This document shows, piece after piece, positions 859 through 19,889 of a stretch of DNA of 49,179 nucleotides. The stretch covers positions 1 through 49,179 of the forward strand of contig JAQGMO010000144.1 in the NCBI GenBank assembly GCA_028292315.1. Reading direction: 5' to 3'. The notes under the pieces are model-generated. The model did no database searches, was not told the origin of the DNA, and worked only from the letters and a program-made list of their open reading frames with translations. Within the stretch, counting starts at the first letter, position 1, and each line of letters begins with the position of its first letter. Origin of the DNA: Herminiimonas sp. Lineage in GTDB: Bacteria; Pseudomonadota; Gammaproteobacteria; Burkholderiales; Burkholderiaceae_D. A program made the position numbers and the translations under genes.

Positions 859-2265
859 ATGCGACTGATCCCCGATTTTGCCGATACCGCGCCGACAGTG
901 CCTGATGCCGCCACCATGCTCCAGGTACAAGCGGCGCTGCTGTCCCGTCCTGGCCTGGAAGAGGCCGCAGCCGACTTTGCCACCCGGCTGGCGGAACTGT
1001 TTGCGGCAGATCGCGTGTGCATCGGGTTTCTGGCCGGTGGCTATGCCAGCGTTATCGCGGCGTCGCATGGCGCCGCGGTGGACGCCCGGCAGGAAGTCAA
1101 TGCACGGATTGCGGCAGCTATGGATGAAGCAATCGATCAGGCCGCGAGTATTGGATACCCGATCGAGGATGGACAGCCCCGAATCACCATGGCCCATGCC
1201 GAACTGGTGCGCCGGCATGGCGGCACGGTGTGCTCGATCCCGATCGTCGGCTTTGGCGCAATAGACGGCGCGGTCACGCTCGAGCGGTTCCATGGTCCGC
1301 CTTTCAGCATGCGGGAACTGGCAACCTGCGAAAGCGTGGTGAGCATGGCGGCCCAGGTGCTTTTGCTCAAGCGCGAGAACGAGCGCTCCTTGTGGGCGCG
1401 TGCCCACGGCGCATTGCGCGGCGCGATCGGCCGCCTCACCGGAAGGGGCGAATTGCGCCTCAAGCTGATCGCCGGCGCCGTCATGCTGGCCCTGGTCACG
1501 CTATTCCTGATTCCGTTGCCATACCACGTCAGTGCCCCGGTACGGCTGGAGGGCGCCATCCAGCGCGCGCTGGTGGCTGCCGATGACGGTTACATCCAGC
1601 AGGTGAGCGCGCGCCCTGGCGATGCGGTAAAGCAGGGCCAGGTGCTGGCTGAACTAGCGCAGCAGGACCTGCAGCTTGAGCGCAGCAAAATAGAAAGCGA
1701 ACTGGCCCAGCATGAAGGCGGGTACAGCGCGGCGCTGGCGCATTCCGACCGGTCCCTGCTCATCGTTAACCAGGCCAAGGCGGACCAGGCGCGTTCAAGG
1801 CTGGACCTGATCGGCAAGCAGATCGAACGCGCGAGCATCAGGGCGCCGTTCGACGGCATCGTGATCAGCGGCGACCTGACCCAGTCACTGGGCAGCCCGA
1901 TCCAGCGCGGCGGCCTGCTTATGGTGGTTGCGCCGCATGAACGCTACCGCCTGATCGTGGAAGTGGACGAGCGTGACATTTCCGAGGTCGCTGTCGGCGC
2001 GGCCGGACGGATTGCGCTGGCGGCATTGCCCGACCGGGCGATTTCCTTCCACACCGAACGGATTGCGCCGGTCGCCGTCACGCGCGACGGCCGGCATTTC
2101 TTCGAAGTAGAGGGCAGGCTGGAATCCGGATCGAACGTGATTCGTCCAGGCCTGGAAGGCGTGGCAAAGATCGATGCGGCGGCGCGTCCGCTCGCCGGCG
2201 CGCTTGGACACCGCATGTGGGTCTGGCTGCGGATGTCGCTCTGGTCGCTCGGATGGTGGCAGTGA
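859..2265 (+). CDS. GAF-domain/HlyD-type membrane fusion protein
   Basis: A 468-residue protein, first gene of the export cassette. Residues about 20-175 look like a cytoplasmic GAF-type sensory domain. One transmembrane helix lies at about 201-220. The rest is a periplasmic HlyD/biotinyl-lipoyl adaptor: a lipoyl half near 240-270 (DAVKQGQVLAEL), a short coiled hairpin, then the second lipoyl half with ASIRAPFDG at 325-333 and a beta-barrel. The C-terminus is Trp-rich. A GAF domain fused to an adaptor is unusual, since HlyD proteins normally have only a short cytoplasmic tail. The stop codon overlaps the start of the next gene, implying translational coupling. A role in export assembly or gating is inferred from the neighbours; no ABC partner is encoded here. 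The start is the first ATG, with AAAGGAATT about 12 nt upstream. Confidence 0.85.
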   Translation: MRLIPDFADTAPTVPDAATMLQVQAALLSRPGLEEAAADFATRLAELFAADRVCIGFLAGGYASVIAASHGAAVDARQEVNARIAAAMDEAIDQAASIGYPIEDGQPRITMAHAELVRRHGGTVCSIPIVGFGAIDGAVTLERFHGPPFSMRELATCESVVSMAAQVLLLKRENERSLWARAHGALRGAIGRLTGRGELRLKLIAGAVMLALVTLFLIPLPYHVSAPVRLEGAIQRALVAADDGYIQQVSARPGDAVKQGQVLAELAQQDLQLERSKIESELAQHEGGYSAALAHSDRSLLIVNQAKADQARSRLDLIGKQIERASIRAPFDGIVISGDLTQSLGSPIQRGGLLMVVAPHERYRLIVEVDERDISEVAVGAAGRIALAALPDRAISFHTERIAPVAVTRDGRHFFEVEGRLESGSNVIRPGLEGVAKIDAAARPLAGALGHRMWVWLRMSLWSLGWWQ

Positions 2266-4400
2266 GCGCGCTATTCAGCCCGTATTGGTATCGCGTCGCG
2301 CACCTTCGGCCGCGTTTGCGGGCCCAGGTGCAGGTGCAGCGTCAAAAGCATCGCGACCAGGTCTGGCACCAGTTGGCGGATGCATCGAGCGGACGCCGCC
2401 ATCGCCTGAACCAGGAAGCCTGGCGCTTCGTCGGCTGCCTCGACGGACGCCTTACCGTCGGCGAGGTCTGGGACGCCATTGCGCATTCGCACGGCGACCA
2501 GGCATTGACGCAGGACGAGGCAATCCGCGTGCTGGAACAGTTGAGCAGCGCCGAGCTGCTGCAATGCGACCTGCCGCCCGATATCGAAGCGCTGTTCCGT
2601 CAAAAAGACAAGCGGGTGCGGCGCCAGCGCTGGGCGGCGCTGAACCCTTTTTCCCTGCGGGTCAGGCTATTTGATCCTACCCGGTTTCTGAATCGTTTCG
2701 ATCCGCTCCTGCCGCGGCTGTTCAGCCGCACCGCGCTTGTGCTTTGGCTGATGCTGGTGATCCCGGCGCTGTTGACGGCGGCGCGCTATTGGCCGGAAAT
2801 GAAAGCGTTCGGACTGGCGCACGCGGACTCGCCGCGATTCCTGCTGATCGCATGGTTCGCCTATCCCCTGATCAAGGCGCTGCATGAAGCCGGCCACGCT
2901 TTAGCGGTGCGGCGTTGGGGCGGCGAGGTGCATAACGTCGGCTTCACTGTTTTCGTGCTGGTGCCGGTGCCTTATGTGGATGCCTCGGCCGCGTCCGGCT
3001 TTGTGCAGCGCTCGCGGCGCGCCGTGGTCAGCGCGATCGGCATCATGATCGAATTGCTGATTGCGGCGCTGGCGTTGTATGTATGGGCCAATGTGCAACC
3101 CGGGCCGGTCAGGGACGCCGCATTCGTCGTCATGCTGATCGCCGGTCTTTCCACCATTGTTTTCAACGGCAATCCGCTGTTGCGCTTCGACGGCTATTTC
3201 CTGCTATGCGACCTGATCGACGTGCCCAATCTGGATCAGCGCAGCCGCACCTGGTGGGTCACCTTTTTCCAGCGGAGCCTGTTCGGCGCAGACGTGCCCG
3301 CACTGCCGCTGGCCGCCGGCGAGCGCAAATGGATGGTGCTCTACGCGCCGCTGGCCTGGGGCTTCCGCCTGTCCCTGGGCATACAGATGATGTTATGGGG
3401 GGCCGGCAAGTCGGCCGTGCTCGGCCTGCTATTCGCCATCGCATTCGTGGCATTCATGCTGATCGGGCCAATGCGGGTAATCGGGCGGCTCGGCATGCGG
3501 CTGCTGCGGAGCGGCGAGCGGCCGCGCACGCGCCTGGCCGTTGCCGCAGCGACAGCGGCGCTGGTGCTGGCGGCCGGCCTGTTGCCGCTGCCGTTCGGCA
3601 CGACGGCGCAGGCAGTGGTCTGGTTGCCCGAGCAGGCCCAGGTACGCGCCGGCACCGAAGGCGTCGTGCGGGAAGTTCGGGTGCGTGACGGCGATGCGAT
3701 TTCAGCCGGCCAGATCCTGGCGGTCCTGGAAGACCCTGATTTGCTCGCCAGGCAGGCCGAAGCCGGCAGTCGCCTGAGCGCATTGCGCACCGAACAATAC
3801 GGCGCGCTGCGCAATTCCCGTTCACAGGCCCTTGGCATGGAGCAGGCGATCGCGCATGCCGAAGCCGAAGTCGCCAGGCTCGAGGAGCGCGCAGCCCAAC
3901 TGACCATTCGCAGCGATGTGACAGGCCGCATGGTGATCGTGCGGCAGGATGATCTGCCTGGCGCGTTTCTCAGGAAAGGCGCGCTGCTCGGATATGTCAT
4001 GGCGCCCGGCGCGCCGATGGTGCGGGCGGTGGTGCCGCACGCCGACGCGGCGCTGGTGCGCGAGCGCACCCGGTCGGTGTCGGTCCGGCTGGATGACAAC
4101 GCAAACGTCGCCGTCACGGCTTTGCTGAGGCGCGATGTGCCGGCTGCGTCGCTCAAGCTGCCGAGCGCCGCACTGTCCGATCGCAACGGCGGCGCCGTGG
4201 TCACCGATCCGGCGGATAACGAACATCTTCGAACGCTCGAGCCATTCTTCATGTTCGACCTGGATCTGCCGGAAACGCAGCTGCAGCGAATCGGCGGCAG
4301 GGCCTGGGCCTACTTCGATTTCGGACGTTCGCCGCTGGTTTCCCAATGGACCCACTCATTGCGGCAACTGTTGATTCAGCATTTCGGCGGAGGAAACTGA
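2253..4400 (+). CDS. PqqD-like/M50 site-2 protease/HlyD fusion membrane protein
   Basis: About 715 residues from the ATG at 2253, which overlaps the upstream stop; a GTG at 2217 would add 12 residues. The N-terminal 120 residues resemble a PqqD-type peptide-binding module (FVGCLDGRLTVGEVWDAI). A multi-pass M50 metalloprotease region follows, with zinc motif HEAGH at 211-215 and a distal NPLLRFDGYF motif supplying the Asp expected in site-2 proteases. After further helices, the C-terminal third is a periplasmic lipoyl/HlyD domain (RVRDGDAISAGQILAVLEDP). The residues visible are compatible with an active intramembrane protease. The three-part architecture suggests substrate binding, cleavage or handling, and periplasmic adaptor functions in one chain. 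It sits between GAF-HlyD and the SecA-like gene, with 1 nt separating it from the latter. The substrate is probably the giant protein downstream, by inference. Confidence 0.85.
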   Translation: MVAVSALFSPYWYRVAHLRPRLRAQVQVQRQKHRDQVWHQLADASSGRRHRLNQEAWRFVGCLDGRLTVGEVWDAIAHSHGDQALTQDEAIRVLEQLSSAELLQCDLPPDIEALFRQKDKRVRRQRWAALNPFSLRVRLFDPTRFLNRFDPLLPRLFSRTALVLWLMLVIPALLTAARYWPEMKAFGLAHADSPRFLLIAWFAYPLIKALHEAGHALAVRRWGGEVHNVGFTVFVLVPVPYVDASAASGFVQRSRRAVVSAIGIMIELLIAALALYVWANVQPGPVRDAAFVVMLIAGLSTIVFNGNPLLRFDGYFLLCDLIDVPNLDQRSRTWWVTFFQRSLFGADVPALPLAAGERKWMVLYAPLAWGFRLSLGIQMMLWGAGKSAVLGLLFAIAFVAFMLIGPMRVIGRLGMRLLRSGERPRTRLAVAAATAALVLAAGLLPLPFGTTAQAVVWLPEQAQVRAGTEGVVREVRVRDGDAISAGQILAVLEDPDLLARQAEAGSRLSALRTEQYGALRNSRSQALGMEQAIAHAEAEVARLEERAAQLTIRSDVTGRMVIVRQDDLPGAFLRKGALLGYVMAPGAPMVRAVVPHADAALVRERTRSVSVRLDDNANVAVTALLRRDVPAASLKLPSAALSDRNGGAVVTDPADNEHLRTLEPFFMFDLDLPETQLQRIGGRAWAYFDFGRSPLVSQWTHSLRQLLIQHFGGGN

Positions 4401-4401
4401 A

Positions 4402-6384
4402 ATGGCCGTGCAGCGCCGGATGAACGGCATCGGCAAGGCGGATCGGGCCAGGGAGCCGGTTCCGGTGCCGGGACTGGTTCTGGGTGATTATCCGGAGCGG
4501 GCCGATCAGGACATACCGCTGGCGTCCTTGCGATTCCGGTTGGCGCAGTTGAGGCGCTTGCATGCGGAACGGTCCGGTCGGGGTCGGCGTTTTGTTTCGC
4601 GGGTGCGCAAGCTGGAGAGCGACTACGCAGTTGAATCGGCGCCGCAACGGCAGGAGCGGCTATTCACGGTGCGCGCCCACCTGGCGCGCGATGGCTTTAC
4701 CGACCCGCTCATGGCGCAGGCTTTCGCGCTCATTATCCTCGCCTGCAGGAACGAGACCGGAATCTCGCCCTATGACACACAGCTGATCGCAGCCCATATC
4801 ATACTTGACCGGCGGCTGGCTGAAATGGCCACCGGCGAGGGCAAGACGCTGGCCGCGGGCATCGCCGCCGCCGCAGCGGCGCTGGCCGGGGTGCCGGTGC
4901 ACGTAATTACCGCCAATGATTACCTGGTGTCGCGCGACCTCGAGAACATGCACCCGCTGTTTCGTGCGCTTGGTTTGACGGCGGGCGCAGTGACCCAGCC
5001 GATGGACCAGGCGCAACGATATGCGGCTTACCGATGCGACATTGTTTATTGCACCGCCAGGGAACTGGTATTCGATTATCTTCGCGACGGGATGTCGCGG
5101 CAGCGTAATAGAGCGGATTCCCCGCCGGCGCGGCTGTTGCGCGGGCTTTGCATGGCGATCATCGATGAAGCCGATGCAATTCTGATCGATGAGGCACGCG
5201 TGCCGCTGGTCTTGTCGCAAGCGATTTCGGAACCGGCGGCGCAACCCGATTTTGCGCAGGCATGGGACATCGCGAAACATCTTGAACAGGGCGCCCATTT
5301 TACGCTGGACGCAGGCCGCCACAGTGCGCGGCTTACCTTGGCCGGCCGCGCGCTCCTGCGGGGAAAGGCCGCACAATCGCCGTCGCCCCGGATGACGCTG
5401 CGGCATTGCGAAGACCTGGTGCGCATGGCGCTGGCCGCCTGCCACATTCTGCAGCCGGGCCGGCACTACCATGTACGGGACGGCAAGGTGCTGATCATCG
5501 ATGAAACCACCGGCCGCACCGCCGAGGGCCGGAGCTGGTCCGGGGGTTTGCAGCAGATGGTGGAACTAAAGGAGAGATGCGCACTTAGTCCGCTGGCGGA
5601 GACCCGGTCGCAGATCACGTATCAACGTTTTTTCCCGCGCTATCTATGGCTATGCGGGATGAGCGGCACGCTGGTAGAGGCAAGCCGGGAACTGTTCCAT
5701 GTGTATGGACTGGAAGTGCAGCGGGTACCGCTGCATCTGCCTGGCCGTCGCGTCCTGTTTAAAACGCGCGTATTTTCCGATATGCAGTCGCAGTGGCATG
5801 CCATCGCGTTGCGGATCGGAGACTTGCATGCAAGCGGGCGCCCGGTATTGGTCGGAACCGATTCGGTGAACGATTCGGAAGCGCTGTCACGGCTTCTGTC
5901 CGGCGCCGGCCTGGCGCATGCGGTGCTGAACGCGCGGCAGGATCGGCATGAAGCGCGGATCATCGCCGCAGCCGGCAATCCGGGTGCGATCACGGTCGCG
6001 ACCAACATGGCCGGCCGCGGCACCGACATCGTGCTGGCGCCGGGCGTGGCGGAAAAGGGCGGACTGCATGTCATCAGCTGTCAGCAGAATGCGTCGCGGC
6101 GCGTGGACCGTCAACTGATCGGACGGTGCGCGCGGCATGGCGATCCCGGCAGCGCGGAAAAATATATTGCGCTGGATGGAAAGCTGCTGGCGCACAGCGC
6201 GCCCGCGCGCGCGGTCGGCAGGGTAGGGCTGAAACGACAGGTATGGCTGGCTTCCATCGCCGCCCTGATGTTGAAGATCGAGCAGGGTAAAGAGGAGCGC
6301 AGGCAGGGCCGTGAACGCGGCCAGTTGTTGCGCGCGGATAAAGAGATGGGCCGCTGGCTTGCATTCGGCGGAATTAAAGCTTGA
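4402..6384 (+). CDS. SecA-like accessory translocase ATPase (short form)
   Basis: A 660-residue protein with the SecA DEAD-motor core. Walker A lies in MATGEGKT (142-149, Lys148), Walker B in IIDEADAILIDEAR (Asp255, Glu256), then GMSGT, and motif VI region TNMAGRGTDI (534-543) with GRCARHGDPGS matching the housekeeping GRSGRQGDPGS. A PPXD-like insertion follows the DEAD region. It is much shorter than a standard SecA of about 900 residues: the scaffold/wing part is reduced to a short Arg/Lys-rich tail, and the C-terminal zinc-binding motif is absent. This resembles a specialised SecA2-type motor rather than the essential SecA. Position between the M50 fusion and a periplasmic adaptor, upstream of a giant surface protein without a classical signal peptide, suggests it drives that protein into SecYEG; this is inference. 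Confidence 0.88.
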   Translation: MAVQRRMNGIGKADRAREPVPVPGLVLGDYPERADQDIPLASLRFRLAQLRRLHAERSGRGRRFVSRVRKLESDYAVESAPQRQERLFTVRAHLARDGFTDPLMAQAFALIILACRNETGISPYDTQLIAAHIILDRRLAEMATGEGKTLAAGIAAAAAALAGVPVHVITANDYLVSRDLENMHPLFRALGLTAGAVTQPMDQAQRYAAYRCDIVYCTARELVFDYLRDGMSRQRNRADSPPARLLRGLCMAIIDEADAILIDEARVPLVLSQAISEPAAQPDFAQAWDIAKHLEQGAHFTLDAGRHSARLTLAGRALLRGKAAQSPSPRMTLRHCEDLVRMALAACHILQPGRHYHVRDGKVLIIDETTGRTAEGRSWSGGLQQMVELKERCALSPLAETRSQITYQRFFPRYLWLCGMSGTLVEASRELFHVYGLEVQRVPLHLPGRRVLFKTRVFSDMQSQWHAIALRIGDLHASGRPVLVGTDSVNDSEALSRLLSGAGLAHAVLNARQDRHEARIIAAAGNPGAITVATNMAGRGTDIVLAPGVAEKGGLHVISCQQNASRRVDRQLIGRCARHGDPGSAEKYIALDGKLLAHSAPARAVGRVGLKRQVWLASIAALMLKIEQGKEERRQGRERGQLLRADKEMGRWLAFGGIKA

Positions 6385-6395
6385 AAGAACGGAAA

Positions 6396-7364
6396 ATGAA
6401 AAATCGACTTTCGTCTATTGGCATTGCGGCCATGTGCGCTGGTGTATCCCTGGTGGCGGCCTCCGGTTCTGCAAGCGCGGCCGGGCCGCTCGGATGCCTT
6501 ATCGAACCGGAACAGGTAGCCGAACTTGGAAGCCCGGCGATCGGTGTCATCAAGTCCATGCTGGTGGAGCGCGGCGACCGGGTACGGAAAGGCCAGGTCA
6601 TTGCAATCTTGCAGGATGAGGTGGAGCGCGCGTCTTTCGACGTCGCGCAATCCCGCTCGCAAGCCGATGCCGAAGTCCGTGCCGCGCTTGCCGCCGCCGA
6701 GCTCGCCCACCAGCGCCGCGACCGGGCCAAAGACCTGCATGCCAAAGGGTTCATCGCCGGCCAGGCGCTCGACCAGACAATCGCGGAGACCAGGGTGGCG
6801 GAGGAAAAGCTGCTGCAGGCGCGCGAGCAGAAGCGGTCGCTGGAAAAGGAGCTTGCGCTTGCCAGGGTCAGGCTGAGCGAACGCACGATTCGCAGTCCGT
6901 TCGACGGCGTCATCGTCGAGCGCTATTTTTCGGCCGGCGAGCGGGTCGAGGAAAAACCCATGGTACGGGTTGCCAGAGTCGATCCCCTGCGGGTCGAAGT
7001 GATCATGCCGAGCAGCCTGTATGGCACCGTCAAGGCAGGGACGGGCGCGCGCGTTACGCCTGATCTGCCCGGCGTGGCGCCGGTGACCGCCACAGTATCG
7101 CTGGTCGACAAAGTGCTCGACCCGGCCAGCGGCACCTTTCGCGTGCGCATGGCCCTGCCGAATGCCAATGCAAGGATACCGGCCGGACTACGGTGCCGGG
7201 TCGAGTTTGCCGCCGCGGAGCCGGCTGCGGGACCGGCTGCAGGACCGGCTGCGGTGCGGCCCGTCGATGCGGCCGTCGCGCGCGCGGCGCCGCAGCAACT
7301 GAAAATGGACTGGCGCCTCATGAACGAGCCGGGCGCGGTCAAGGCAAGCCCACCGAAAATGTGA
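6396..7364 (+). CDS. Periplasmic adaptor (RND/MFP-type membrane fusion protein)
   Basis: About 322 residues from ATG 6396. A TTG at 6381 also opens the frame, but the SecA stop overlaps it, and AGAACGGA sits correctly for 6396. A signal peptide (MKNRLSSIGIAAMCAGVSLV...) ends near ASA before AGPLG. It is followed by a first lipoyl half (VERGDRVRKGQVIAIL), a long helical hairpin at about 75-160, the second half (TIRSPFDGVIVERYFSAGE) and a beta-barrel. It is shorter than typical RND adaptors. The tail is Ala/Pro/Gly-rich, built on a 12-bp DNA repeat at 7218-7253. It is the third HlyD-like domain in the operon, yet no inner-membrane pump or TolC is encoded. The giant protein gene starts 10 nt downstream. 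Confidence 0.85.
   Translation: MKNRLSSIGIAAMCAGVSLVAASGSASAAGPLGCLIEPEQVAELGSPAIGVIKSMLVERGDRVRKGQVIAILQDEVERASFDVAQSRSQADAEVRAALAAAELAHQRRDRAKDLHAKGFIAGQALDQTIAETRVAEEKLLQAREQKRSLEKELALARVRLSERTIRSPFDGVIVERYFSAGERVEEKPMVRVARVDPLRVEVIMPSSLYGTVKAGTGARVTPDLPGVAPVTATVSLVDKVLDPASGTFRVRMALPNANARIPAGLRCRVEFAAAEPAAGPAAGPAAVRPVDAAVARAAPQQLKMDWRLMNEPGAVKASPPKM
7218..7253 (+). repeat. Three 12-bp tandem repeats inside the adaptor gene
   Basis: Three near-identical 12-bp units of the GGACCGGCTGCG type encode a repeated Ala-Ala-Gly-Pro linker. Unit number may vary by replication slippage without breaking the frame. Confidence 0.6.
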
Positions 7365-7374
7365 ACGGGAATCG

Positions 7375-10300
7375 ATGATGACTACGGAACGCGTGCCGCC
7401 CAGCCGATCGGACCATAGCCGGACCGGCCGCGCGCTATCCGTTTCATGGACGGCGCGGTTTTCATGGTTGGGCCGCGCGTGGGCGGCCTGGCGCGCCGAG
7501 CGCCCCGCACGGCATGTTCCGCTGGTTGAGGAGTATGAGCCGCGCCTGCTGTATTCGGCCGATTTCGCTGCGGCCGGACTGGCGCTGGCGGGAGCGGGCC
7601 AGCCGGTCGAGCAGCGAATCGTCGACGCGAGCGGCGAGTTCGTCCAGTTGTCTGCAATGCAGGCGCAGGTGCAGCAGACGCAGCGTGAGGTGCTGATCAT
7701 CGGCGCCGGTATCGAGGATAGCCAGACCCTGCTCGACGGTTTGAGCGGCGATGGCCGCGAAATTGAAGTCCTGCGGCTTGACCCTTCCCGCGACAGCATC
7801 CGGCAGATCAGCGAAGCGTTGGCTGGACGGCATGATCTTGCCGCAATCCATATCCTGTCGCATGGCGCGCACGGCCAGTTGCAATTGGGCGCCACGACGC
7901 TGGATGGGGCGCAACTCGCTGCCCGTGCGGATGAAGTCGGTGGCTGGGGGCAGGCGTTGACCGCCGGCGGCGATATCCTGCTCTATGGCTGCGATGTCGC
8001 ATCCGGTCAATCCGGCGCGGCGTTTGTGCAGCAGTTGGCGGCGCTGACCGGAGCCGATATCGCCGCCAGCGATGACATCACCGGGAGCGGCCTGCGGCAG
8101 GGCGACTGGAATCTCGAATATGCGGCTGGTCAGGTCGAGACCGGCCTCGCGTTCAACACGGCGGCCCAACTGCAATGGGCCGGCACGCTCGAGACGCGCG
8201 CAAACAGCACCACTTCGGGGAAGCAAACCGACGCCGCGGTGGCGATCAGCGCAGCGGGTACTTCTGTCGTCGTATGGACCGGTGACGCCAATCAGGATGG
8301 AGACGGCAGCGGCATTTTCATGCAGCGATTCGACGCCGCCGGAAACCGGCTCGGAGGGGAAGTCCAGGTTAACACCCGTTTCGACCTCGACCAGACCAGC
8401 GCATCGGTGGCGATGGATGCGAGCGGTGGCTTTGTGGTGACTTGGGCCAGTAAAAGCACGGACAACAGCGGCAGCGGCAACATCGCCGACCGCGATGGCT
8501 GGAGCATACGCGCACAGCGTTTCAATCCGGACGGCAGCAGGGCCGGGGACGAGTTTGTCGTCAATCAGGGAACCGAGAAGGACCAGGAGCAGCCGGCAAT
8601 CGCAGTGGCACCGGACGGACAGTTCGTGATTGCATGGCGCAGTTCGGTCAAGAAAGATATCTATATTCGCCATTTTGATCCAAGTGGGAATGCGTTGAGC
8701 GGCGACGTGCTGGCCAGTACGCTCAAGGAAGGCGGCACCCAGGAGCTTCCTGCTATCGCGATTGGCAGCGATGGCAGTTACTTAGTGACATGGCAAAGCG
8801 ATAAGGGCGGCAGCGGCAAGGCGGTCTTTGCCCAACGCTTCGACAGGGACGACACTGCAGTCGGCACAAAATTCCGGGTCAATACATATGATGAAAACGA
8901 TCAGATGCAGCCTTCGGTTGCGCTCGGCGGTAACGGCAGGTTTGTAATCGCCTGGACCAGCGTTGACCAGGACGGCGCAAGCGAGGGAGTGTACGCGCAG
9001 TTGTACGGACCGGACGGTGTCCCGGTCGGTAATGAATTCCGCGTCAGCAGTACGACCGCCGGCAAGCAGCACTCCGCTTCTGTTGCAATGGATAGCGGCG
9101 GCAACTTCATCATTGCCTGGTCCGACGAAAAGAAGGACGACGGCGGCAGCTACGGCGTCTATGCGCAGCGCTATGATTCCAATGGCGCCGCGCTCGGCAC
9201 GCCATTTCTGGCGAATACGACTACCTCGGGCAACCAGAGTATTCCCGCAGTCGCGTTGAACGGCAGTGGCGACGCCGTGATTGCATGGGAAGGCAAGGGC
9301 GCCGACGATGATAACGGCGTTTTTACAAGCGTCTACATCGCATCCAATACGGCGCCATCTGCGAATCCGGATCTGGCAAGCACTAGCCAGAACGTGGCGG
9401 TGACTGGGGCCGCGCCGGGGTTGCTGATCAACGACACCGATCCGGATTCCGGTTCAGTGCTCGCCATAATCGAAATCGTTGCAGGTGCCGACGCATCGAT
9501 GCAAGTCACTGCATCCGGCGTTACCATCGCCGGCGTTTTCGGCGACCTGTTCATCAAGGCCGACGGAAGCTATCTTTACACGCCGAACACGGCGGCCAGG
9601 GCGTTGGCCGCCGGGCAGTCCGGCACTGATCTGTTCATCTATATTATCCGGGACGACAAAAACGCGGTCGCCACGTCCACGGTAACATTCACGATCAACG
9701 GCTTGAATGACGCGCCCGTCGCACATGACAATACATATGCGGTCGCCAAGCTCGGCTCGCTGAACGTGGCCGCCGCCGGGGTACTCGGTAACGATAGTGA
9801 CGCGGACCTCGTGCCGGTGCCGGATGCGCTTGTTGTAAGCTCGGTAAACGGGCAAGCGAACAAGGTCGGTGCGGCGGTCTCAGGCTCGTATGGCAATCTC
9901 ACGCTCGACGCCGACGGCAGCTTGCGCTATGCGCCCGATACGCTCAATGTCGTTCTTATAGGTTTGCTGACCGGTCAATCCGTGGTGGATAGCTTTACCT
10001 ACCAGATATCCGATGGAAAAGGTGGCACGGCGAGCGCCGCAATACATATCACGGTGATGGGTGCGAATACAGCCCCGACCGCTGTGGGCGACGCGGGATA
10101 CGTGGTGCAGGAAGATGGCGCGCTCGCGGTCGCCGCCGGCGCCGGCGTCCTGAGCAACGACAGCGATGTCGACGGCAATGCGCTTTCGGCCGTGCTGGTG
10201 AGCGGACCGGCCCACGGCAGCCTGGTCCTGCGCCAGGATGGCTCGTTCACCTATACGCCGGATGCGCTTTACAACGGCGCTGACAGCTTTACCTACCGCG

Positions 10301-12927
10301 CCAGCGACGGTTCGCTCAACTCCAACCTCGCCTCCGTCGCCTTGACGGTCACGCACGTCAACCACGCGCCGGTCGCGCTGGAAGATCGCGCAGCCGTCAT
10401 CCAGGGGGGCAGCGTGGCGGCCGGCGCCGCCGGGGGATTGCTGGGCAATGACAGCGATCCCGACACAATCGACACGCCGCGTATCATCAGCGTCCGTGTC
10501 GGCAGCACCAGTGTTGCGGTGGGGCCGGGGCTGCAAGGCGTATTAGTCACTGACCATGGCACGCTGACGTTAAGCAACGACGGCAGTTACAGTTACGTGG
10601 CTGATGGCGCTTCAAGCAGATCGCTGGCGGCCGGTTCCGTAACGAACGACGTATTCGCTTACACGTTGAGCGACGGGCAGGGCGGAACAGTCAGTGCGGA
10701 ACTGACCATTACGATTACCGGAACCAACGACGCACCGGACATTGCCGGTGCCGTCGCGAACCAGGCAACCGACGACAGGGCGGATATCTCGCCCTTCGCC
10801 GGACTGACCATTGGGGATCCGGACAGTCCGGCCCAGGCGCTTACCGTCGACATCACCCTGGACGCGGCGGCCAAGGGCACCCTTTCAAATATTGGCGGCG
10901 CAAGTTATGACGCGGCTGCGGGAATTTACAGTTTTACCGGTAGCGCGGAAGAGGTCACTGCAGCGGTACGCGCGCTGATATTCAGGGCCGCGCCGGACCG
11001 TGTCGCACCAGGCACGACCGAAACCACGGGCTTCAGCATCCGTGTCAGCGACGGGCAGGCCGCCACTACCGACGCAACGACCTCGGTTATTACGAGCTCA
11101 ATCAATGATACGCCCCTTATCAGCGGCGCCGCCCCCGGCCAGACGGTCGACGACACAGCCGGCATTGCAGCGTTTTCGACGATAACGGTGAGCGATGCCG
11201 ACAATCCTTCTCAGTCGCTCGCGGTCAGCATTGCGCTCGATAACGCGACCAATGGAATCCTCTCCAATCTTGGCGGCGGCACCTATGATGCGGCCGCCGG
11301 ACTCTATCGTTTCACCGGCACCGCCGCACAGGCCACTGCCGCGACGCGGGGACTGGTTTTCACGCCGGCCGCGAATCGGGTGACGCCGGGCGCAACCGAA
11401 GTCACTGGATTTACCATTGTCGTCAGTGACGGGCTAGCAAGCGCGAGCGACGCGACGACTACCGTCGTCTCAAGATCGGTCAATGATGTCCCGACGATTT
11501 CCGGCGCCGTCGCTTCCCAGCCAGTGGCTGACAATGCGACGTTGAATCCATTTTCCACTGTTTCGTTTGGCGATGCGGACAACCCGGCCCAATCGCTTGC
11601 CGTCCGCATCACGCTTGATAGCGCTGCCAAAGGTACGCTGTCGAACCTGGGAGGCGGGAACTACGATGCGGCGGCCGGCGTGTATCTTTTCTCCGGCACC
11701 ACCGCCGACGCAATGACCGCCGTGCGTGGACTGAAATTTACGCCGACGGCCAACCGCGCAGCACCAGGCTCGACCGAAACGACGGCCTTCAGCATCAGCG
11801 TCGGCGACGGGCAAGCGATAGCGGCTGACGCCACCACAACCGTCGTCACGGCCTCCGTCAACGACGCCCCGGTCGCCTTGCTGGCGAGAGCGGACGGTGT
11901 CCAGGATGCGGACAGCACGATCATCATTACATTGGCTGCAACCGACATTGATGGCGCTGCCGCGAGTTTCAAAATCGTAAGCCTTCCCGCAAACGGAACC
12001 TTATACCTGGACGCTGCGGGCATTTCGCCGCTCATGCCTGGCCTGTCGATTCCGGCAGATGGCAACCGGCTGTCAGTTTATTTCAGGCCGGCGGCCGGAT
12101 GGGTCGGCGACACCGGCTTTTCCTATATCGCCACCGACAATTTGGGCCTCGAAAGCGCGAATCAGGCTCTGGTTAATGTAACCATCGCGCCCATCATGAC
12201 CGAGATCATGATCGAAACAGTCGCAGTCGCGGATTCCGCCAGCTTCTTGCCGTTGGCCGCGTCGGCTCCCGCCAGTCTTGCGCCGGCCGCGGCGCCGGCG
12301 CCCGCAGCCGATTCCACGGCGGTGCAGGCCGCGGCGCGCACGGTCGGCGCCGAATTTTTTCTCACTGCGTCAGCCGATGTGAACGCGCTGGCAGCCGGCG
12401 AGGGTCAGAGCGCGACGGCCGACGGCAGCGCCGGCGTTCAATCGCGGCGCACCGCAGACCGTGCCATGACCGCCAGCATGTTCACATTGCCGGTGACGAT
12501 GGCGGCCCAGGCAGCCACCATCTTTGGCTCTGCCATTGCATCGGAGCTGAGCACAGGCACGGCAGCCGTGAGCGGTACGCTGGAAAGCGTCAGCGCGGCG
12601 ACGCAAAGCCGGGCCATGATAGCTGGCCTCGACCAGCTGCGCGAAAGCGTAAAGGGCAGCGAGGAAGCGGAGCAGCGCGTCATCGGCTCCACTGTTGCCG
12701 CCGGCGCCAGCGTCTCGGTGGGATATGTCATCTGGCTGCTGCGCGGCGGGGTGCTTGCGACGAGCCTGCTATCGTCCTTGCCGGCGTGGCGCTTTGTCGA
12801 TCCGCTGCCGGTGCTGAGCCGCTTCAAGCAGGACGATGACGAGGATGACGATGATTCCCTGGAGGCGATCGTCGGCGAGGATTACGATGAGCAGGGAGCC
12901 GATCCGGATGATGAACGAAGAAATTAG
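7375..12927 (+). CDS. Giant DUF4347/propeller/VCBS-type surface protein (1850 aa)
   Basis: No classical signal peptide is visible. The N-terminus is Arg/Trp-rich and followed by EPRLLYSAD at 55-63, a box I recall from LEPR-XLL-type giant extracellular proteins. Residues about 105-270 match DUF4347, with SHG (His163) and YGCD (Cys206), reminiscent of clan CD (caspase/gingipain-like) His-Cys dyads. Seven repeats of 50-65 residues (about 277-653) look like a beta-propeller. VCBS/cadherin-like Ig repeats (NDTDPDSG, NDSDVDG) occupy about 655-1115. Three 126-residue repeats (1118-1495) follow, then one more Ig-like module and an Ala-rich linker. The C-terminus has a hydrophobic segment GYVIWLLRGGVLATSLL followed by PAWRFVDPLPVL and a highly acidic tail. 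It is probably the exported cargo of the cassette, an adhesin or matrix protein, by inference. The start is the first of two adjacent ATGs, 10 nt after the adaptor gene. Confidence 0.88.
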   Translation: MMTTERVPPSRSDHSRTGRALSVSWTARFSWLGRAWAAWRAERPARHVPLVEEYEPRLLYSADFAAAGLALAGAGQPVEQRIVDASGEFVQLSAMQAQVQQTQREVLIIGAGIEDSQTLLDGLSGDGREIEVLRLDPSRDSIRQISEALAGRHDLAAIHILSHGAHGQLQLGATTLDGAQLAARADEVGGWGQALTAGGDILLYGCDVASGQSGAAFVQQLAALTGADIAASDDITGSGLRQGDWNLEYAAGQVETGLAFNTAAQLQWAGTLETRANSTTSGKQTDAAVAISAAGTSVVVWTGDANQDGDGSGIFMQRFDAAGNRLGGEVQVNTRFDLDQTSASVAMDASGGFVVTWASKSTDNSGSGNIADRDGWSIRAQRFNPDGSRAGDEFVVNQGTEKDQEQPAIAVAPDGQFVIAWRSSVKKDIYIRHFDPSGNALSGDVLASTLKEGGTQELPAIAIGSDGSYLVTWQSDKGGSGKAVFAQRFDRDDTAVGTKFRVNTYDENDQMQPSVALGGNGRFVIAWTSVDQDGASEGVYAQLYGPDGVPVGNEFRVSSTTAGKQHSASVAMDSGGNFIIAWSDEKKDDGGSYGVYAQRYDSNGAALGTPFLANTTTSGNQSIPAVALNGSGDAVIAWEGKGADDDNGVFTSVYIASNTAPSANPDLASTSQNVAVTGAAPGLLINDTDPDSGSVLAIIEIVAGADASMQVTASGVTIAGVFGDLFIKADGSYLYTPNTAARALAAGQSGTDLFIYIIRDDKNAVATSTVTFTINGLNDAPVAHDNTYAVAKLGSLNVAAAGVLGNDSDADLVPVPDALVVSSVNGQANKVGAAVSGSYGNLTLDADGSLRYAPDTLNVVLIGLLTGQSVVDSFTYQISDGKGGTASAAIHITVMGANTAPTAVGDAGYVVQEDGALAVAAGAGVLSNDSDVDGNALSAVLVSGPAHGSLVLRQDGSFTYTPDALYNGADSFTYRASDGSLNSNLASVALTVTHVNHAPVALEDRAAVIQGGSVAAGAAGGLLGNDSDPDTIDTPRIISVRVGSTSVAVGPGLQGVLVTDHGTLTLSNDGSYSYVADGASSRSLAAGSVTNDVFAYTLSDGQGGTVSAELTITITGTNDAPDIAGAVANQATDDRADISPFAGLTIGDPDSPAQALTVDITLDAAAKGTLSNIGGASYDAAAGIYSFTGSAEEVTAAVRALIFRAAPDRVAPGTTETTGFSIRVSDGQAATTDATTSVITSSINDTPLISGAAPGQTVDDTAGIAAFSTITVSDADNPSQSLAVSIALDNATNGILSNLGGGTYDAAAGLYRFTGTAAQATAATRGLVFTPAANRVTPGATEVTGFTIVVSDGLASASDATTTVVSRSVNDVPTISGAVASQPVADNATLNPFSTVSFGDADNPAQSLAVRITLDSAAKGTLSNLGGGNYDAAAGVYLFSGTTADAMTAVRGLKFTPTANRAAPGSTETTAFSISVGDGQAIAADATTTVVTASVNDAPVALLARADGVQDADSTIIITLAATDIDGAAASFKIVSLPANGTLYLDAAGISPLMPGLSIPADGNRLSVYFRPAAGWVGDTGFSYIATDNLGLESANQALVNVTIAPIMTEIMIETVAVADSASFLPLAASAPASLAPAAAPAPAADSTAVQAAARTVGAEFFLTASADVNALAAGEGQSATADGSAGVQSRRTADRAMTASMFTLPVTMAAQAATIFGSAIASELSTGTAAVSGTLESVSAATQSRAMIAGLDQLRESVKGSEEAEQRVIGSTVAAGASVSVGYVIWLLRGGVLATSLLSSLPAWRFVDPLPVLSRFKQDDDEDDDDSLEAIVGEDYDEQGADPDDERRN
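8203..9345 (+). repeat. Seven propeller-like repeats in the giant protein
   Basis: Seven copies follow a pattern of polar turn, AxVAMD-type strand, GGFVVTW-type strand, xVYAQRFD strand and G-x-xxGxEFxVN loop. The seven strand-2 motifs include FVVTWAS, FVIAWRS, YLVTWQS, FVIAWTS and FIIAWSD. Seven units would close one seven-bladed beta-propeller (residues about 277-653). Confidence 0.6.
10726..11859 (+). repeat. Three exact-length 378-bp (126-aa) tandem repeats
   Basis: Units begin at 10726, 11104 and 11482, each starting with Asn-Asp and ending before the next Asn-Asp at 11860. Each carries a GTLSNxGG motif, YDAAAGxYxFxG and a closing FSIxVSDG strand. The constant length with diverged DNA suggests old duplications maintained as structural modules. 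Confidence 0.85.
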
Positions 12928-12936
12928 GACAGACTG

Positions 12937-15471
12937 ATGAAATCGCTCACCGCAAAAACGCATATTGCGTTAGGACTCGGATTCCTCGTCGCAAGCGTAA
13001 TCCTCGGCGCTTCGTTCCTTGGGCTGGTTCCGGACCGGCTCGGCGCCATCCGCGACGGCCGGGCGGCACTGGCGGAAACCCTCGCCATCAGCGGCACTGC
13101 CATGGTCACCAGGGGCGAGCCGCGCATGTTCGAGTCTACCCTGCAGATGGTGGTCAAACGCAATTCCGATCTGCTCTCGGCCGGCATGCGCCGGGCCGAC
13201 GGCGCGCTGGTCGTCTCCGTCGGCCCGCATGAAGGAAATTGGGTCATCCCGGTGGGTGATTATTCGACCGATACCCAGTTGCGCGTGCCGATAATGGCCG
13301 GCGCTACCAGTTGGGGACAGCTCGAGCTGCGTTACATGGCGCCGCACGGCCAGGGTTTCATGGCCATCGTAAAAGGCCCGCTGTTCATGCTGGTCGCGTT
13401 CACTTCACTGGTGTGCTTTGTCCTGTTTTATTTTTACCTTGGCAAGGTGCTGCGCCATCTTGATCCGTCCGAAGCGATTCCCGGCCGGGTGCGCGCGGCT
13501 CTGGACACCCTGGTGGAAGGCTTGCTGGTGATTGACCGCAAGCAGAATATCGTTCTTGCCAACGAGGCGTTCGCTTCTTTCCTTGGCAAGACACCGGAGG
13601 CCTTGCTTGGCCATAATGCGGCGGCCCTGGACTGGAGGGATGAAAAAGGCCAGCCTCTCGCCGGCGGCGCGCTGCCGTGGCTGGACAGCCTGCGCAACGG
13701 GGCCGGGCCAAGCGACAGCATGATCAGTCTTTTCACTACCCATGGCGAGCAGCGTAATTTCATCGTTAACTGTTCACCGGTGCAGGGCGTGCGCGGCAAG
13801 GCTAATGGGGTCTTCATCAGCCTCAACGACGTTACCCAGATCGAACGCAACAAGGTGGAACTGCACCAGGCAAAGGACGAAGCCGAATCGGCCAATCGCG
13901 CCAAGAGCGAGTTTCTCGCCAATATGAGCCATGAAATTCGCACGCCGATGAATGCGATTCTCGGGTTCACCGAGTTGCTTAAACGCGGTTATGGGAAGAA
14001 CGAGCAGGATTCGATCAAGTTCCTCGATACCATCCACTCGAGCGGCAAGCATTTGCTTGAGCTGATCAACGATATTCTCGACTTGTCCAAGGTGGAAGCG
14101 GGACAGATGGAAATGGAGCGCATACCGTGTTCTCCGCACCGGATCGTGCGCGAAGTCGTGAATGTCCTGGCGGCGCGCGCCAATGAAAAAGGGATCGCCG
14201 TGGCGATTCATGCGCGCGGTGCGATTCCCGACCTGATCGAATCGGATCCCGGCCGGCTGCGCCAGATCGTCACCAACCTGTTGGGTAATGCGATCAAGTT
14301 CACGGAGCAAGGCAGCGTGCAGGTCGTGCTGCATCTCGAGCAGCGCGGAGACCGGCAGTTGTTTGCAATCGATGTTGTCGATAGCGGCATTGGCATTCCG
14401 AATGACAAGCTGGATAGTATTTTCGAGGCCTTCGTGCAGGCCGATACCAGCGTGACGCGCCGCTTCGGCGGAACCGGTCTCGGACTATCGATCAGCCGGC
14501 GCTTTGCCCGAGCGCTGGGTGGTGATATCGTCGCCAGCAGTGTGCCGGGAACCGGCAGCACGTTCGCGGTGCGCGTGGAGACTGGCCCGCTGGACAGCGT
14601 CCGCTACCTGACGCCGGAGGAAATCCTGGCCGGGGATGCGCCGCTGGCGACATCGGAGCAGGCACATTGGGTTTTCCCGGACGCGACGCGCGTGCTGGTG
14701 GTGGACGACGGCCCGGAAAACCGCGAGCTGGTCAAACTGATCCTTGAAGAAAACGGCTTGCAGGTAGAGCTGGCCGAAAACGGCCAGATCGGCCTGGACA
14801 AGGGGCTGGCCGGACGATTCGATCTGGTGCTGATGGATATGCAGATGCCTGTGATGGACGGATACATGGCCACTCGGCTATTGCGGGAACGCGGCTTCGG
14901 CAACCCGATCTTCGCATTGACCGCCCATGCAATGAAGGGATTCGATCAGGAAATTGCCGCTGCCGGGTGCACAGGATATCTGACCAAGCCGATCGATATC
15001 GATAGCTTGTTGCAGTCGATTGCCGATGCGCTGGGTGGCCGGCGCGTGACTGGTGCGCGGCCGGACGACGTGATTGCGCCGGACGCGCCGCAAGCCGCCA
15101 TGCCGGCGCCGGTTGAGGCCGCGCCTGCGGCGGCGCCAATTGACGCCGAGCCGGAATCGACGCCGCTGATTTCGCGCCTGGCTGACCGGCCGCGCCTGCA
15201 TTCCGCGATCAGGAAGTTTACGGCGCGTCTGAATGAGCAGCTCGATGCCATGGACCGCGCCTGGCAGGCGCGCGATATGGAAGAACTGGCGGCGCTCGCG
15301 CATTGGCTCAAGGGCGCAGCCGGTACGGTGGGCTATGACGCGTTCACCGAGCCTTCCGCGGAACTCGAGCAATGGATCATAGCGGACGCCAGCGATCAGA
15401 TCACGGCTTCGTTGCGGAAATTGCGAAGCTTGCAGAGCCGGATCGTGGAGCCGGCCGCAGCAGCGGTATAA
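12937..15471 (+). CDS. Hybrid sensor histidine kinase with REC and HPt
   Basis: An 844-residue membrane kinase. TM1 lies at about 7-29, a periplasmic sensor domain at about 30-145, and TM2 at about 148-170. Then come a PAS domain (about 188-300, [16 protein letters not shown]), HisKA with [14 protein letters not shown] (His332), and HATPase_c with N-box [19 protein letters not shown] and [11 protein letters not shown] receiver follows with Asp634 in [12 protein letters not shown], and a C-terminal HPt with His789 in [13 protein letters not shown]. All catalytic and phospho-acceptor residues are present, so an internal His-Asp-His relay is expected. The natural output is the REC-GGDEF-EAL protein encoded next. 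The gene starts 9 nt after the giant protein gene, so the kinase is made with its putative target. The signal is unknown. Confidence 0.93.
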
Positions 15472-15561
15472 AACAATAGCTGGCAACCGGCGCCGATTGC
15501 GCCGCACTTGCCGCCCCGGAGAGACCAGGATGCAGAAATTACCGTATCAAAGGAAGCGAAA

Positions 15562-17439
15562 ATGAGCAATCCGATAGCCGAAACGCCTGCGTCAGCGTTT
15601 CCCATGGGGGCGGCGCTGGCAATGCTGCCGCCGGCCGCCGGCGGCGCTATCCAGCAAACGCTTGCTCCGGGAGAGGCGATTGCGCCCGGCGCCGGTGATA
15701 GCGGCAATCTGGAACTGCTGCGCAGGGCGAAAGTGATGATGGTCGACGATGAGCCGATCACGATCGAAGTAATGCGGGAGTTTCTGGAAGAGGCCGGCTA
15801 CGCCAATTTTGTCGACACCAGCAATCCGGAAGAAGCGATGCAGCTTGTTGCCGACGAGCGGCCGGATGTCATATTGCTTGACCTGATGATGCCCGTGGTG
15901 AGCGGATTCGATATTCTTGCCGCATTGCGCGCCGATGAAAACTACCGCCATATCCCGGTAATTGTATTAACGTCGTCGACCGATTCCAGGACCAAGCTCA
16001 GGGCCCTGGAACTGGGCGCGACCGATTTTCTCGCGAAACCGGTCGATTCGAGCGAACTGGCGCTGCGCCTGCGCAATACGCTTGCGGCAAAAGCGTACCA
16101 GGATCGCCTGACTTATTTCGATGTGCTGACAGGGCTGCCGAATCGGCGGATGTTTTGCGACCATCTCGACTGGACCTTACGCCAGGCGCAACGCTATGAA
16201 CGCATCGGCGCGCTGCTGTACATTAACATCGACCATTTTAAAAAGATCAACGATGCGCTGGGGCCCGCGATTGCGGACACGTTTTTACAGGCGATCAGCA
16301 AGAGACTCGAGCAAAGCGTCCGTGCCAGCGATACGATTGCCCATGCCGGCGAAGAGAGCCTGCATCCGCGCCTGTCGCGGGTAGGCGGGGATGAGTTTGC
16401 CGTATTGCTGGTGGAAATGGAAAAGGAAGAAGACGCAATCCGCGTCGCCAATCGCATGCTCGATGTGATGGGTATGCCGTTCCAGGTTGCCGGCCGCGAG
16501 CTGTTTACAACCTGCAGCATCGGCATTTCAGTGTTTCCGGCGGATGGCATCGACCGCGACGGGCTGTTGCAAAACGCCGGCGTAGCCATGCGTTTTGCGA
16601 AGCAGCAGGGCGGCAATGCCTATCGTTTTTATTCTAGCGATCTGAATGAGCGCTCGCTGCAATATCTCGGATTGGAAAGCGATTTGCGCAAGGCAGTCGA
16701 GCGCAATGAGCTGCAGCTTTACTATCAACCGAAGATCAATGCAGCGAGTAAGACAATTGCCGGTGCCGAGGTATTGATACGCTGGAAGCATATTGAACGC
16801 GGATTCATCAAGCCGGACGATTTTATTCCTCTAGCCGAGGAAACCGGCTTGATCGTGCCGATTGGCGCATGGATTTTCGCCGAAGCATGCAGGAGCATCA
16901 AGAAATGGCAGGCACAAGGCTTGAGCGTACCGCGCGTATCGGTTAATGTTTCCGGACGCCAGTTCAGCACCCCGGGTTTCCATCAGACCGTAAGCGACAT
17001 CATCGACAGCACGGGGATCGATCCACAATGCATCACGTTCGAAGTAACCGAAAGCATGCTGATGGAAAACGCACAGGAAAATATTCTGCTCCTCAATCAG
17101 CTCAAAGCCATGGGACTGCAACTCTCCATGGATGACTTTGGCACCGGTTATTCCTCCCTTAGCTATCTGCGCCGCTTTCCGCTTGATGAACTGAAGATCG
17201 ACCGTTCCTTTCTGGCCGAACTCGATGTTGGTAACAAGGGCGATGGCGGCATGCTAATCGTCGCAATTATCGCGCTTGGACATAGCCTTGGCCTGCGTAT
17301 CGTCGCCGAAGGGGTCGAGACCGAGGCGCAGTATGAATTCCTGCGACGCCATGAATGCGACGAGTGCCAGGGATATTTCTTTAGTAAACCCATTCCCGGC
17401 GTGGAATTCGAAGCCTTGCTCGCCAAACAATTGGAATGA
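15562..17439 (+). CDS. Response regulator with GGDEF and EAL domains (c-di-GMP)
   Basis: 625 residues from ATG 15562, preceded by AAAGGAAG; a TTG start at 15508 is less likely. After about 50 variable residues comes a receiver with Asp107 (VILLDLMMPV). A GGDEF domain has an intact GGDEF at 275-279, but no RxxD inhibitory site in the usual position five residues upstream. An EAL domain has EVL at 403-405 (ExLxRW kept), VNVSGRQFS, FEVTESM, DDFGTGYSSLSYL and AEGVET, so the phosphodiesterase residues look intact. The protein could make or degrade c-di-GMP; its net activity cannot be read from sequence. It lies 90 nt after the hybrid kinase and is the likely acceptor of its HPt phosphate. It would link the export cassette to the biofilm/motility switch. 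Confidence 0.92.
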   Translation: MSNPIAETPASAFPMGAALAMLPPAAGGAIQQTLAPGEAIAPGAGDSGNLELLRRAKVMMVDDEPITIEVMREFLEEAGYANFVDTSNPEEAMQLVADERPDVILLDLMMPVVSGFDILAALRADENYRHIPVIVLTSSTDSRTKLRALELGATDFLAKPVDSSELALRLRNTLAAKAYQDRLTYFDVLTGLPNRRMFCDHLDWTLRQAQRYERIGALLYINIDHFKKINDALGPAIADTFLQAISKRLEQSVRASDTIAHAGEESLHPRLSRVGGDEFAVLLVEMEKEEDAIRVANRMLDVMGMPFQVAGRELFTTCSIGISVFPADGIDRDGLLQNAGVAMRFAKQQGGNAYRFYSSDLNERSLQYLGLESDLRKAVERNELQLYYQPKINAASKTIAGAEVLIRWKHIERGFIKPDDFIPLAEETGLIVPIGAWIFAEACRSIKKWQAQGLSVPRVSVNVSGRQFSTPGFHQTVSDIIDSTGIDPQCITFEVTESMLMENAQENILLLNQLKAMGLQLSMDDFGTGYSSLSYLRRFPLDELKIDRSFLAELDVGNKGDGGMLIVAIIALGHSLGLRIVAEGVETEAQYEFLRRHECDECQGYFFSKPIPGVEFEALLAKQLE

Positions 17440-17825: not shown

Positions 17826-18054
17826 ACGTATTGCAGCGTCGCCGGCCGGCAAAAAGTTGCGCATATCGCCGCGCAACGCGTCGGCCGCTGGCCGGACACT
17901 AGCCGGCAACCGCCGTCCGCACACTGTCATCCGCCGTGTGCCCGGCGCGGCCTGGCCGCGACAACCGCCGTCCGGCGCAGCCATGCGTTTGATTGAATCA
18001 GGCATAATGCCGGAATCAGGCGATCCCGATCTCGCCGTGTCTTATCATCCGTGC

Positions 18055-19203: not shown

Positions 19204-19331
19204 AATACGAGGCTTTAATTTTTAGACGCGCGTATCAACGAAGTGTTTGCCGATGTTTTGACAACGTGGCCGGCAAGCCCACGGATGATTGTGACGACTG
19301 AACTTCCCACTTTTTATACCCAAATCACGCT

Positions 19332-19889
19332 ATGAAAACCGCACAAGAAATCCGCGTTGGTAATGTCGTCATGGTCGCTGGCGAACCAATGGTTGTTTTG
19401 AAAACCGAATACACCAAGTCCGGCCGCAATTCTTCAGTTTGCAAAATGAAAATGAAGAACCTGCTGACCGATGCGGGCCTGGAGTCGGTCTACCGCGCCG
19501 ACGACAAATTCGACATCGTTACGCTCGATCGCAAGGAAGCGACCTACTCGTACTTCGCCGATCCGCTGTACGTCTTCATGGATACCGAGTACAACCAGTA
19601 TGAAGTCGAAGGTGAAAACCTGGGCGAGGCGATCAACTACCTGGAAGACGGCATGCCTTGTGAAGTCGTGTTCTATAACGAAAAAGCGATCTCGGTGGAA
19701 CTGCCGACGACCGTGGTGCGCGAGGTGGTTTACACCGAACCGGCCGTCAAGGGCGACACCTCCGGCAAAGTCTTGAAGCCTGCGAAGATTGCCACCGGAT
19801 TCAATGTGTCGGTACCGCTGTTCGTCGGTCAGGGCGACAAGATCGAAATCGATACCCGCACCGGCGAATACAAGAGCCGCAGCAAGTAA
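19332..19889 (+). CDS. efp: Translation elongation factor P
   Basis: A 185-residue EF-P with KOW-like domain I followed by two OB domains, the standard length. The tip loop reads YTKSGRNSS with Arg at position 32, the residue glycosylated by EarP in beta- and some gammaproteobacteria, rather than the lysine used by the EpmA/EpmB pathway. This agrees with earP immediately upstream. EF-P acts in the ribosomal P/E sites to promote peptide bonds between consecutive prolines. The stop codon lies in a 12-bp tandem repeat, described separately. A TAAAAT box at 19201-19206 could serve as its -10 element, but no well-spaced -35 was found. A strong terminator follows at 19997. Confidence 0.98.

Follow-up and report, generated by a model that had tools for sequence, protein, structure and literature searches.

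A DUF4347 domain in a giant surface protein of Herminiimonas sp.: a predicted clan CD cysteine peptidase and its operon context

The DUF4347 domain at residues 106-272 of an 1850-aa giant surface protein of Herminiimonas sp. is probably a clan CD endopeptidase of the CPDadh/Tce1 kind, with a predicted His163/Cys206 dyad, that would process its own giant protein after export. We regard the domain as, very probably, a cysteine protease of the caspase-like kind, and as highly likely to be catalytically active. That the giant protein is exported by the products of neighbouring genes appears rather likely, and processing in cis, not in trans, is slightly favoured. The protein is encoded in a stretch of 49,179 nucleotides, referred to below as the window.

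The idea that DUF4347 belongs to clan CD is not new, as CPDadh was proposed in 2009 and Tce1 was published in 2026. Pei, Lupardus, Garcia and Grishin (2009, Protein Sci 18:856) reportedly described CPDadh as cysteine peptidase domains of putative bacterial cell-cell interaction proteins, forming a peptidase family of adhesin-like proteins that is said to be homologous to the MARTX cysteine protease domain. We take CPDadh, with good reason, to be the same domain as DUF4347. The title of the CPDadh paper is cited in PMC2900308. Tce1 is a DUF4347 protein and putative cysteine protease whose putative dyad, His186/Cys240, can be superposed on a clostridial toxin's cysteine protease domain (TcdB), and which was without toxicity or demonstrated activity (PMC13323088). 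PMC3482391 mentions caspase-like domains in large surface proteins of bacteria as likely autoprocessing; neither of these two sources demonstrates activity or cleavage by any adhesin DUF4347.

The DUF4347 domain and its predicted His/Cys dyad

The gene and the features of its product are the following:

7375..12927, plus strand: giant surface protein of 1850 aa with a LEPR-like motif, DUF4347, beta-rich repeats, a hydrophobic C-terminal segment and an acidic tail
7534..7563, plus strand: LEPR-XLL-like N-terminal motif YEPRLLYSAD, residues 54-63 (sequence reading and homologues)
7690..8190, plus strand: predicted DUF4347/CPDadh-like clan CD peptidase domain, residues 106-272 (PF14252 and model fold)
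7861..7863, plus strand: predicted catalytic His163 in SHG (conservation and alignment with the Tce1 His186 motif)
7990..7992, plus strand: predicted catalytic Cys206 in YGCD (conservation and alignment with the Tce1 Cys240 YGCD motif)
8176..8190, plus strand: conserved W-x-G-x-L at the C-terminal domain boundary, residues 268-272 (L272 conservation and homologue listing)
12679..12816, plus strand: conserved hydrophobic C-terminal segment, residues 1769-1814, VIGSTVAAGASVSVGYVIWLLRGGVLATSLLSSLPAWRFVDPLPVL (alignment across phyla)
12829..12924, plus strand: acidic C-terminal tail, residues 1819-1850 (sequence)

The beta-rich repeats are of the cadherin-like/VCBS/tandem-95 type, and Pfam places bacterial cadherin-like and Ig-like repeats after DUF4347. 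The protein scores 102.7 bits against NF045619 (BapA/Bap/LapF adhesins), which is below the cut-off of 180. Residues 106-272 match PF14252 over profile positions 1-164 (Pfam; E 2.9e-53, 180.4 bits against a cut-off of 24.6). The SHG motif occupies residues 162-164 and GCD residues 205-207, and the numbering His163/Cys206 given in the initial annotation is therefore right. The hydrophobic strands described there are also present in the model, one (67-73) preceding His75 and the other (107-116) preceding Cys118 in model numbering.

We collected DUF4347 domains from relatives of the source genome and from named genomes of several phyla, comprising Betaproteobacteria, Gammaproteobacteria, Deltaproteobacteria, Planctomycetes, Verrucomicrobia, Cyanobacteria, Nitrospirota and Magnetococcales. 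In 64 aligned domains, which are 30-62% identical to that of the 1850-aa protein, only six columns are invariant, and the dyad His and Cys are among them. Among 120 domain matches the His is kept in 117 of 118 and the Cys in 116 of 117, a degree of conservation that, judged from these alignments, is far beyond chance. A Tyr is found two positions before the Cys in 112 of 117 domains; the pentapeptide QACxG of C14 caspases is not present, and YGCDV is found instead. At the C-terminal boundary, L272 of WxGxL is conserved in 104 of 111 domains; this motif may be a weak candidate for a self-cleavage site, and could equally well be a structural edge of the domain.

The domain was modelled from 28 sequences with high confidence (pLDDT 94.2, pTM 0.89). 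The initial annotation had suggested a caspase- or gingipain-like peptidase, a reading that would fall if the fold were unrelated to clan CD. The predicted model has an alpha-beta fold of the caspase/gingipain type of clan CD, and chains of this clan dominate both the Foldseek and the VIA lists, whose best matches are Tce1, caspases, C11, CHAT/Craspase and legumain; together with the near-invariant predicted dyad, these matches support the suggestion. The best PDB match in Foldseek is Tce1 (9qpe_G, E 9.8e-6), followed by caspases (E 3e-4 to 1e-3). VIA-align superposes the model on Tce1 (9qpe) with a Z of 12.5 over 147 residues at 2.9 A, and on other chains with lower scores: SAVED-CHAT 9.1 (rmsd 5.8 A), C11 7.7, caspase-7 7.4, Craspase TPR-CHAT 7.3 and legumain 7.2. 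The values for caspase, C11, CHAT and legumain are thus middling, and only Tce1, itself a DUF4347 protein, is clearly above them. Since a Z of about 7 can reflect a common arrangement, we place the weight on the Tce1 match, on the consistency of the lists and on the dyad. In the profile alignment, THG and YGCD of Tce1 pair with SHG and YGCD of the adhesin domain, so that the putative Tce1 dyad His186/Cys240 falls on the predicted dyad His163/Cys206. No gingipain (C25) or C80 chain is present among the top 50 rows of the Foldseek and VIA lists, an absence that proves nothing. De novo TIM barrels, which appeared as sequence matches in the PDB, were rejected because they are short, repeated matches to a single helix-strand stretch.

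These comparisons also bear on the possibility that the likeness to clan CD is a chance resemblance of an unrelated, Rossmann-like fold. A few short-chain dehydrogenases do appear in Foldseek at E 2e-3, and Z values of about 7 are compatible with such a common arrangement, but the Tce1 match lies well above the rest, the dyad aligns with it, and clan CD peptidases dominate what remains of the list. We regard this explanation as close to refuted.

Another explanation is that the domain keeps the caspase fold without catalysis, serving as a folding plug or a binding module in which His and Cys are structural. Pei et al. (2009) reportedly noted inactive eukaryotic relatives of CPDadh, and a eukaryotic ECT2L chain (PDB 11xu) gives a weak match over the full domain (E 0.055); moreover, activity of DUF4347 is not demonstrated in PMC13323088. 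Against this stands the near-absolute conservation of His and Cys in complete domains across phyla, with decay confined to degenerate copies. As such copies are informative, extra weak or tandem DUF4347 matches were fetched. Among the 120 matches, the only exception having both positions present is the first tandem copy of locus L054, in which His is replaced by Asp and Cys by Phe. The Cys is also lost in the upstream copies of L200, L201 and L202 and in the single copy of L203 (deleted, Ser, Met and Met, respectively), and in two of these four the His is lost as well (Pro, Ser), alongside the replacement of Cys by Met. All five Cys-less copies, two of which have the entire motif altered, lack the C-terminal part of the domain that contains Trp245. 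Every copy that covers both positions and retains Trp245 has both residues, including the distant LLGC and LWSC types. That the dyad has decayed only where the remainder of the domain has decayed too is, as far as aligned copies can tell, the behaviour expected of an active site, and we consider a non-catalytic role improbable. In L054, L200, L201 and L202, the upstream pseudo-peptidase copy adjoins an intact tandem DUF4347 copy.

Leader motif and C-terminal segment

Many homologues contain a LEPRxLxSAD or LEPRxMFDGA motif between the start of the protein and DUF4347, 30-110 aa upstream of the domain. The model for the LEPR-XLL motif, NF012209 ('LEPR-8K'), does not reach its cut-off anywhere in the source genome, though YEPRLLYSAD is visible; in the nearest relative (G054, LEARLLYSAD) it is over the cut-off with an E of 0.005. 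Loci with LEPRxMFDGA form a second leader class (e.g. L001, L012, L013 and L099), and the protein with an M50 domain fused to an HlyD adaptor (M50-HlyD, see below) that is found with this class is a more distant form (e.g. L047, L099 and L151). At cyanobacterial loci (e.g. L051, L069 and L076), DUF4347 lies near the very N-terminus, without a LEPR motif or the cassette described below, and some cyanobacterial DUF4347 proteins carry RTX-type repeats at their end, which suggests that they are exported by a different route.

The linker between the LEPR motif and DUF4347 is variable among homologues and predicted to be disordered, and it therefore holds no conserved scissile motif. In an extended model the pLDDT is 45-55 for the LEPR motif and about 50-66 for the linker; docking of the motif onto the peptidase is unsupported. 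The modelled disorder of the LEPR segment and linker suits an accessible leader, without showing one. The LEPR motif was also considered as a DUF4347 cleavage site, with a cut after Arg, and this idea was dropped because LEPR giants without DUF4347 exist.

The hydrophobic C-terminal segment follows the pattern …LSVGYVIWLLRGG…LPAWR..DPLPVL and is followed by an acidic tail. Among proteins with a visible C-terminus, this combination is present in 16 of 22 SAD-type and in one of 19 motif-less proteins. A strict hydropathy cut-off does not classify residues 1769-1814 as transmembrane, and a membrane hairpin is therefore only a possibility for this segment. Taken together, the LEPR-type leader, the exporter-like neighbours and the hydrophobic C-terminal anchor mark the giant protein as a predicted exported and tethered adhesin.

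The operon and its genome-wide occurrence

The gene for the giant protein is part of a set of seven genes that abut or overlap each other on the plus strand (859-17439). The other six are the following:

859..2265, plus strand: GAF domain and HlyD-like adaptor (Pfam/NCBIfam)
2217..4400, plus strand: M50 site-2-protease-like domain fused to an HlyD adaptor (Pfam/NCBIfam and motifs)
4402..6384, plus strand: SecA-like ATPase of 660 aa, a shorter form than canonical SecA in which both GEGKT (Walker A) and DEAD are preserved
6381..7364, plus strand: HlyD/RND_mfp periplasmic adaptor (Pfam/NCBIfam)
12937..15471, plus strand: hybrid histidine kinase with a periplasmic loop between two TM helices, PAS, HisKA, HATPase, REC and Hpt
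15508..17439, plus strand: REC-GGDEF-EAL c-di-GMP response regulator (Pfam/NCBIfam)

The M50-HlyD protein contains HEAGH at 223 and NGNPLLRFDG at 317-326, and its true start is probably the ATG at 2253; HExxH was found in 38 of the 40 homologous frames examined. The source genome contains a second, separate SecA elsewhere (G000:C159). Further downstream in the window (17857-19889), EarP (EF-P arginine rhamnosyltransferase) is followed by EF-P, a known and ordinary pair.

At 12 loci the DUF4347 gene is followed, at a distance of 0-106 bp, by a full-length homologue of the hybrid kinase; a thirteenth locus (L041) has two DUF4347 genes in tandem, and there the homologue comes after the second. 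These 13 kinase-linked loci span Betaproteobacteria to Planctomycetes, and all of them have the hydrophobic C-terminal segment. Of 80 named loci, roughly 35 have a near-complete set of the upstream genes beside a DUF4347 gene; where planctomycete examples have this set, its genes are on the opposite strand. The upstream cassette genes were not found around the cyanobacterial DUF4347 loci among the named loci. At L047 (9643-14491), a DUF4347 frame of 1616 aa ends in an HlyD-adaptor-like part, which is either a cargo-adaptor fusion or a frame artefact. When only named DUF4347 loci with 8 kb or more of upstream sequence are counted, M50-HlyD is present in 21 of 28 SAD-type versus five of 28 other loci (p 4e-5, with relatedness ignored).

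Co-occurrence at the level of whole genomes was analysed in two samples, one of 100 relatives and one of 199 genomes drawn across the phylum, with M50-HlyD scored at E <= 1e-20 and, for the 100 relatives, its strong form at E < 1e-70. Among the relatives, M50-HlyD is present in 15 of 20 genomes with DUF4347 and in two of 80 others. The strong form was found in 10 of 12 genomes with LEPR-8K versus one of 88 without; this one exception is the source genome itself, in which the motif is visible but below the model threshold. The sample across the phylum gave the same associations, with p values that ignore shared ancestry and genome size: M50-HlyD in 53 of 61 DUF4347 genomes versus nine of 138 others (Fisher p 5e-30), any M50-HlyD in all 29 LEPR-8K genomes versus 33 of 170 others (Fisher p 7e-18), and the strong form in 22 of 29 versus four of 170 (p 2e-19).

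The association is also seen in gene position, as 21 of 40 LEPR frames end at most 10 kb from an M50-HlyD gene, and for 14 of the remaining frames the matches considered include no M50-HlyD on that contig. The longest LEPR frame encodes 19,427 aa. Five genomes (G109, G118, G168, G246 and G252) contain LEPR and the strong cassette and have no DUF4347, and in G001 a LEPR protein of 4392 aa without a DUF4347 motif adjoins the cassette. The existence of LEPR giants without DUF4347 indicates that the cassette tracks the leader motif and not the peptidase, and makes DUF4347 look like an optional processing module on the cargo of an export system.

These contexts are relevant to whether the peptidase cuts its own chain. 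An active clan CD peptidase could instead act in trans after export, on partners, prey or other surface proteins. That Tce1 is a stand-alone T6SS cargo means that DUF4347 can act outside an adhesin, and the domain occurs in varied export contexts, among them cyanobacterial proteins that have neither LEPR nor the cassette, some of these with RTX-type repeats. However, its fixed N-terminal place beside the leader, in carriers of hundreds of kDa with different repeats, fits processing of the carrier better, and action in trans seems rather unlikely. In the preferred reading, processing in cis, DUF4347 would fold after export of the giant protein and then cleave the chain to which it belongs, so that either the LEPR leader is removed or the repeat stalk is released.

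Tentatively, the whole operon may be read as a secretion-and-sensing system for giant surface proteins, combining export, two cuts and a c-di-GMP readout, though this is only one reading and a doubtful one. The truncated SecA-like ATPase, the M50 protease-adaptor fusion and the two further HlyD-type adaptors would export proteins with a LEPR leader. Where present, DUF4347 would cut first, from within the cargo itself, and the M50 protease would follow with a cut in the membrane at the conserved hydrophobic segment near the C-terminus; the adjacent hybrid kinase would then sense the release state and convert it into a c-di-GMP output. The operon is widespread, occurring in several phyla, and apparently undescribed. 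A search of literature of partial coverage, which is weak evidence, returned no publication on the operon or cassette, and this context may be a new, as yet unproven part of the picture.

The peptidase reading gives a concrete, testable chemistry to a DUF that is present in about 30% of the sample across the phylum (61 of 199 genomes). The operon suggests a surface route for proteins of thousands of residues where no adjacent ABC exporter is seen, and points to a part for a SecA paralogue and an intramembrane protease in the export of giant proteins. If true, this would be an export route of its own, occurring in several phyla.

Comparison with known systems

The domain shares with CPDadh, as that family is reported, the predicted clan CD fold, the His/Cys dyad and an N-terminal place in large surface proteins; the LEPR/M50-HlyD/SecA-like operon is, as far as we know, outside the description of CPDadh. 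With Tce1 (PA0256 of Pseudomonas aeruginosa, 9qpe), a cargo of the H3-T6SS, it shares DUF4347, a fold with the above Z of 12.5 and aligned His/Cys motifs. In contrast to the adhesin, Tce1 is a stand-alone effector of 310 aa in Hcp3, without adhesin, LEPR leader or cassette, and the identity is 18-20%.

The C80 domains of MARTX and large clostridial toxins (MARTX/TcdB CPD) have an InsP6-binding site and cleave after Leu. They resemble the predicted DUF4347 peptidase in belonging to clan CD, in having His before Cys and in autoprocessing within a giant secreted protein, which for DUF4347 is a proposal, whereas their activation by InsP6 takes place after entry into the host cell. C80 is moreover a reported structural relative of Tce1 (PMC13323088).

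The LapA/LapG/LapD system likewise consists of a giant adhesin under proteolytic control with c-di-GMP genes nearby. LapG, however, is a stand-alone protease of the periplasm with a different fold, while the DUF4347 peptidase is built in and may be the on-chain counterpart of LapG for LapA-type adhesins. Unlike in the LapA system, no ABC transporter was identified among the scanned neighbour genes of the 1850-aa protein (Pfam/NCBIfam). Finally, the LEPR-XLL giants share with this protein the class of N-terminal motif and the giant repeat architecture, and differ in that NF012209 is a model of a 24-residue motif without a stated function or exporter, many of whose members are without DUF4347.
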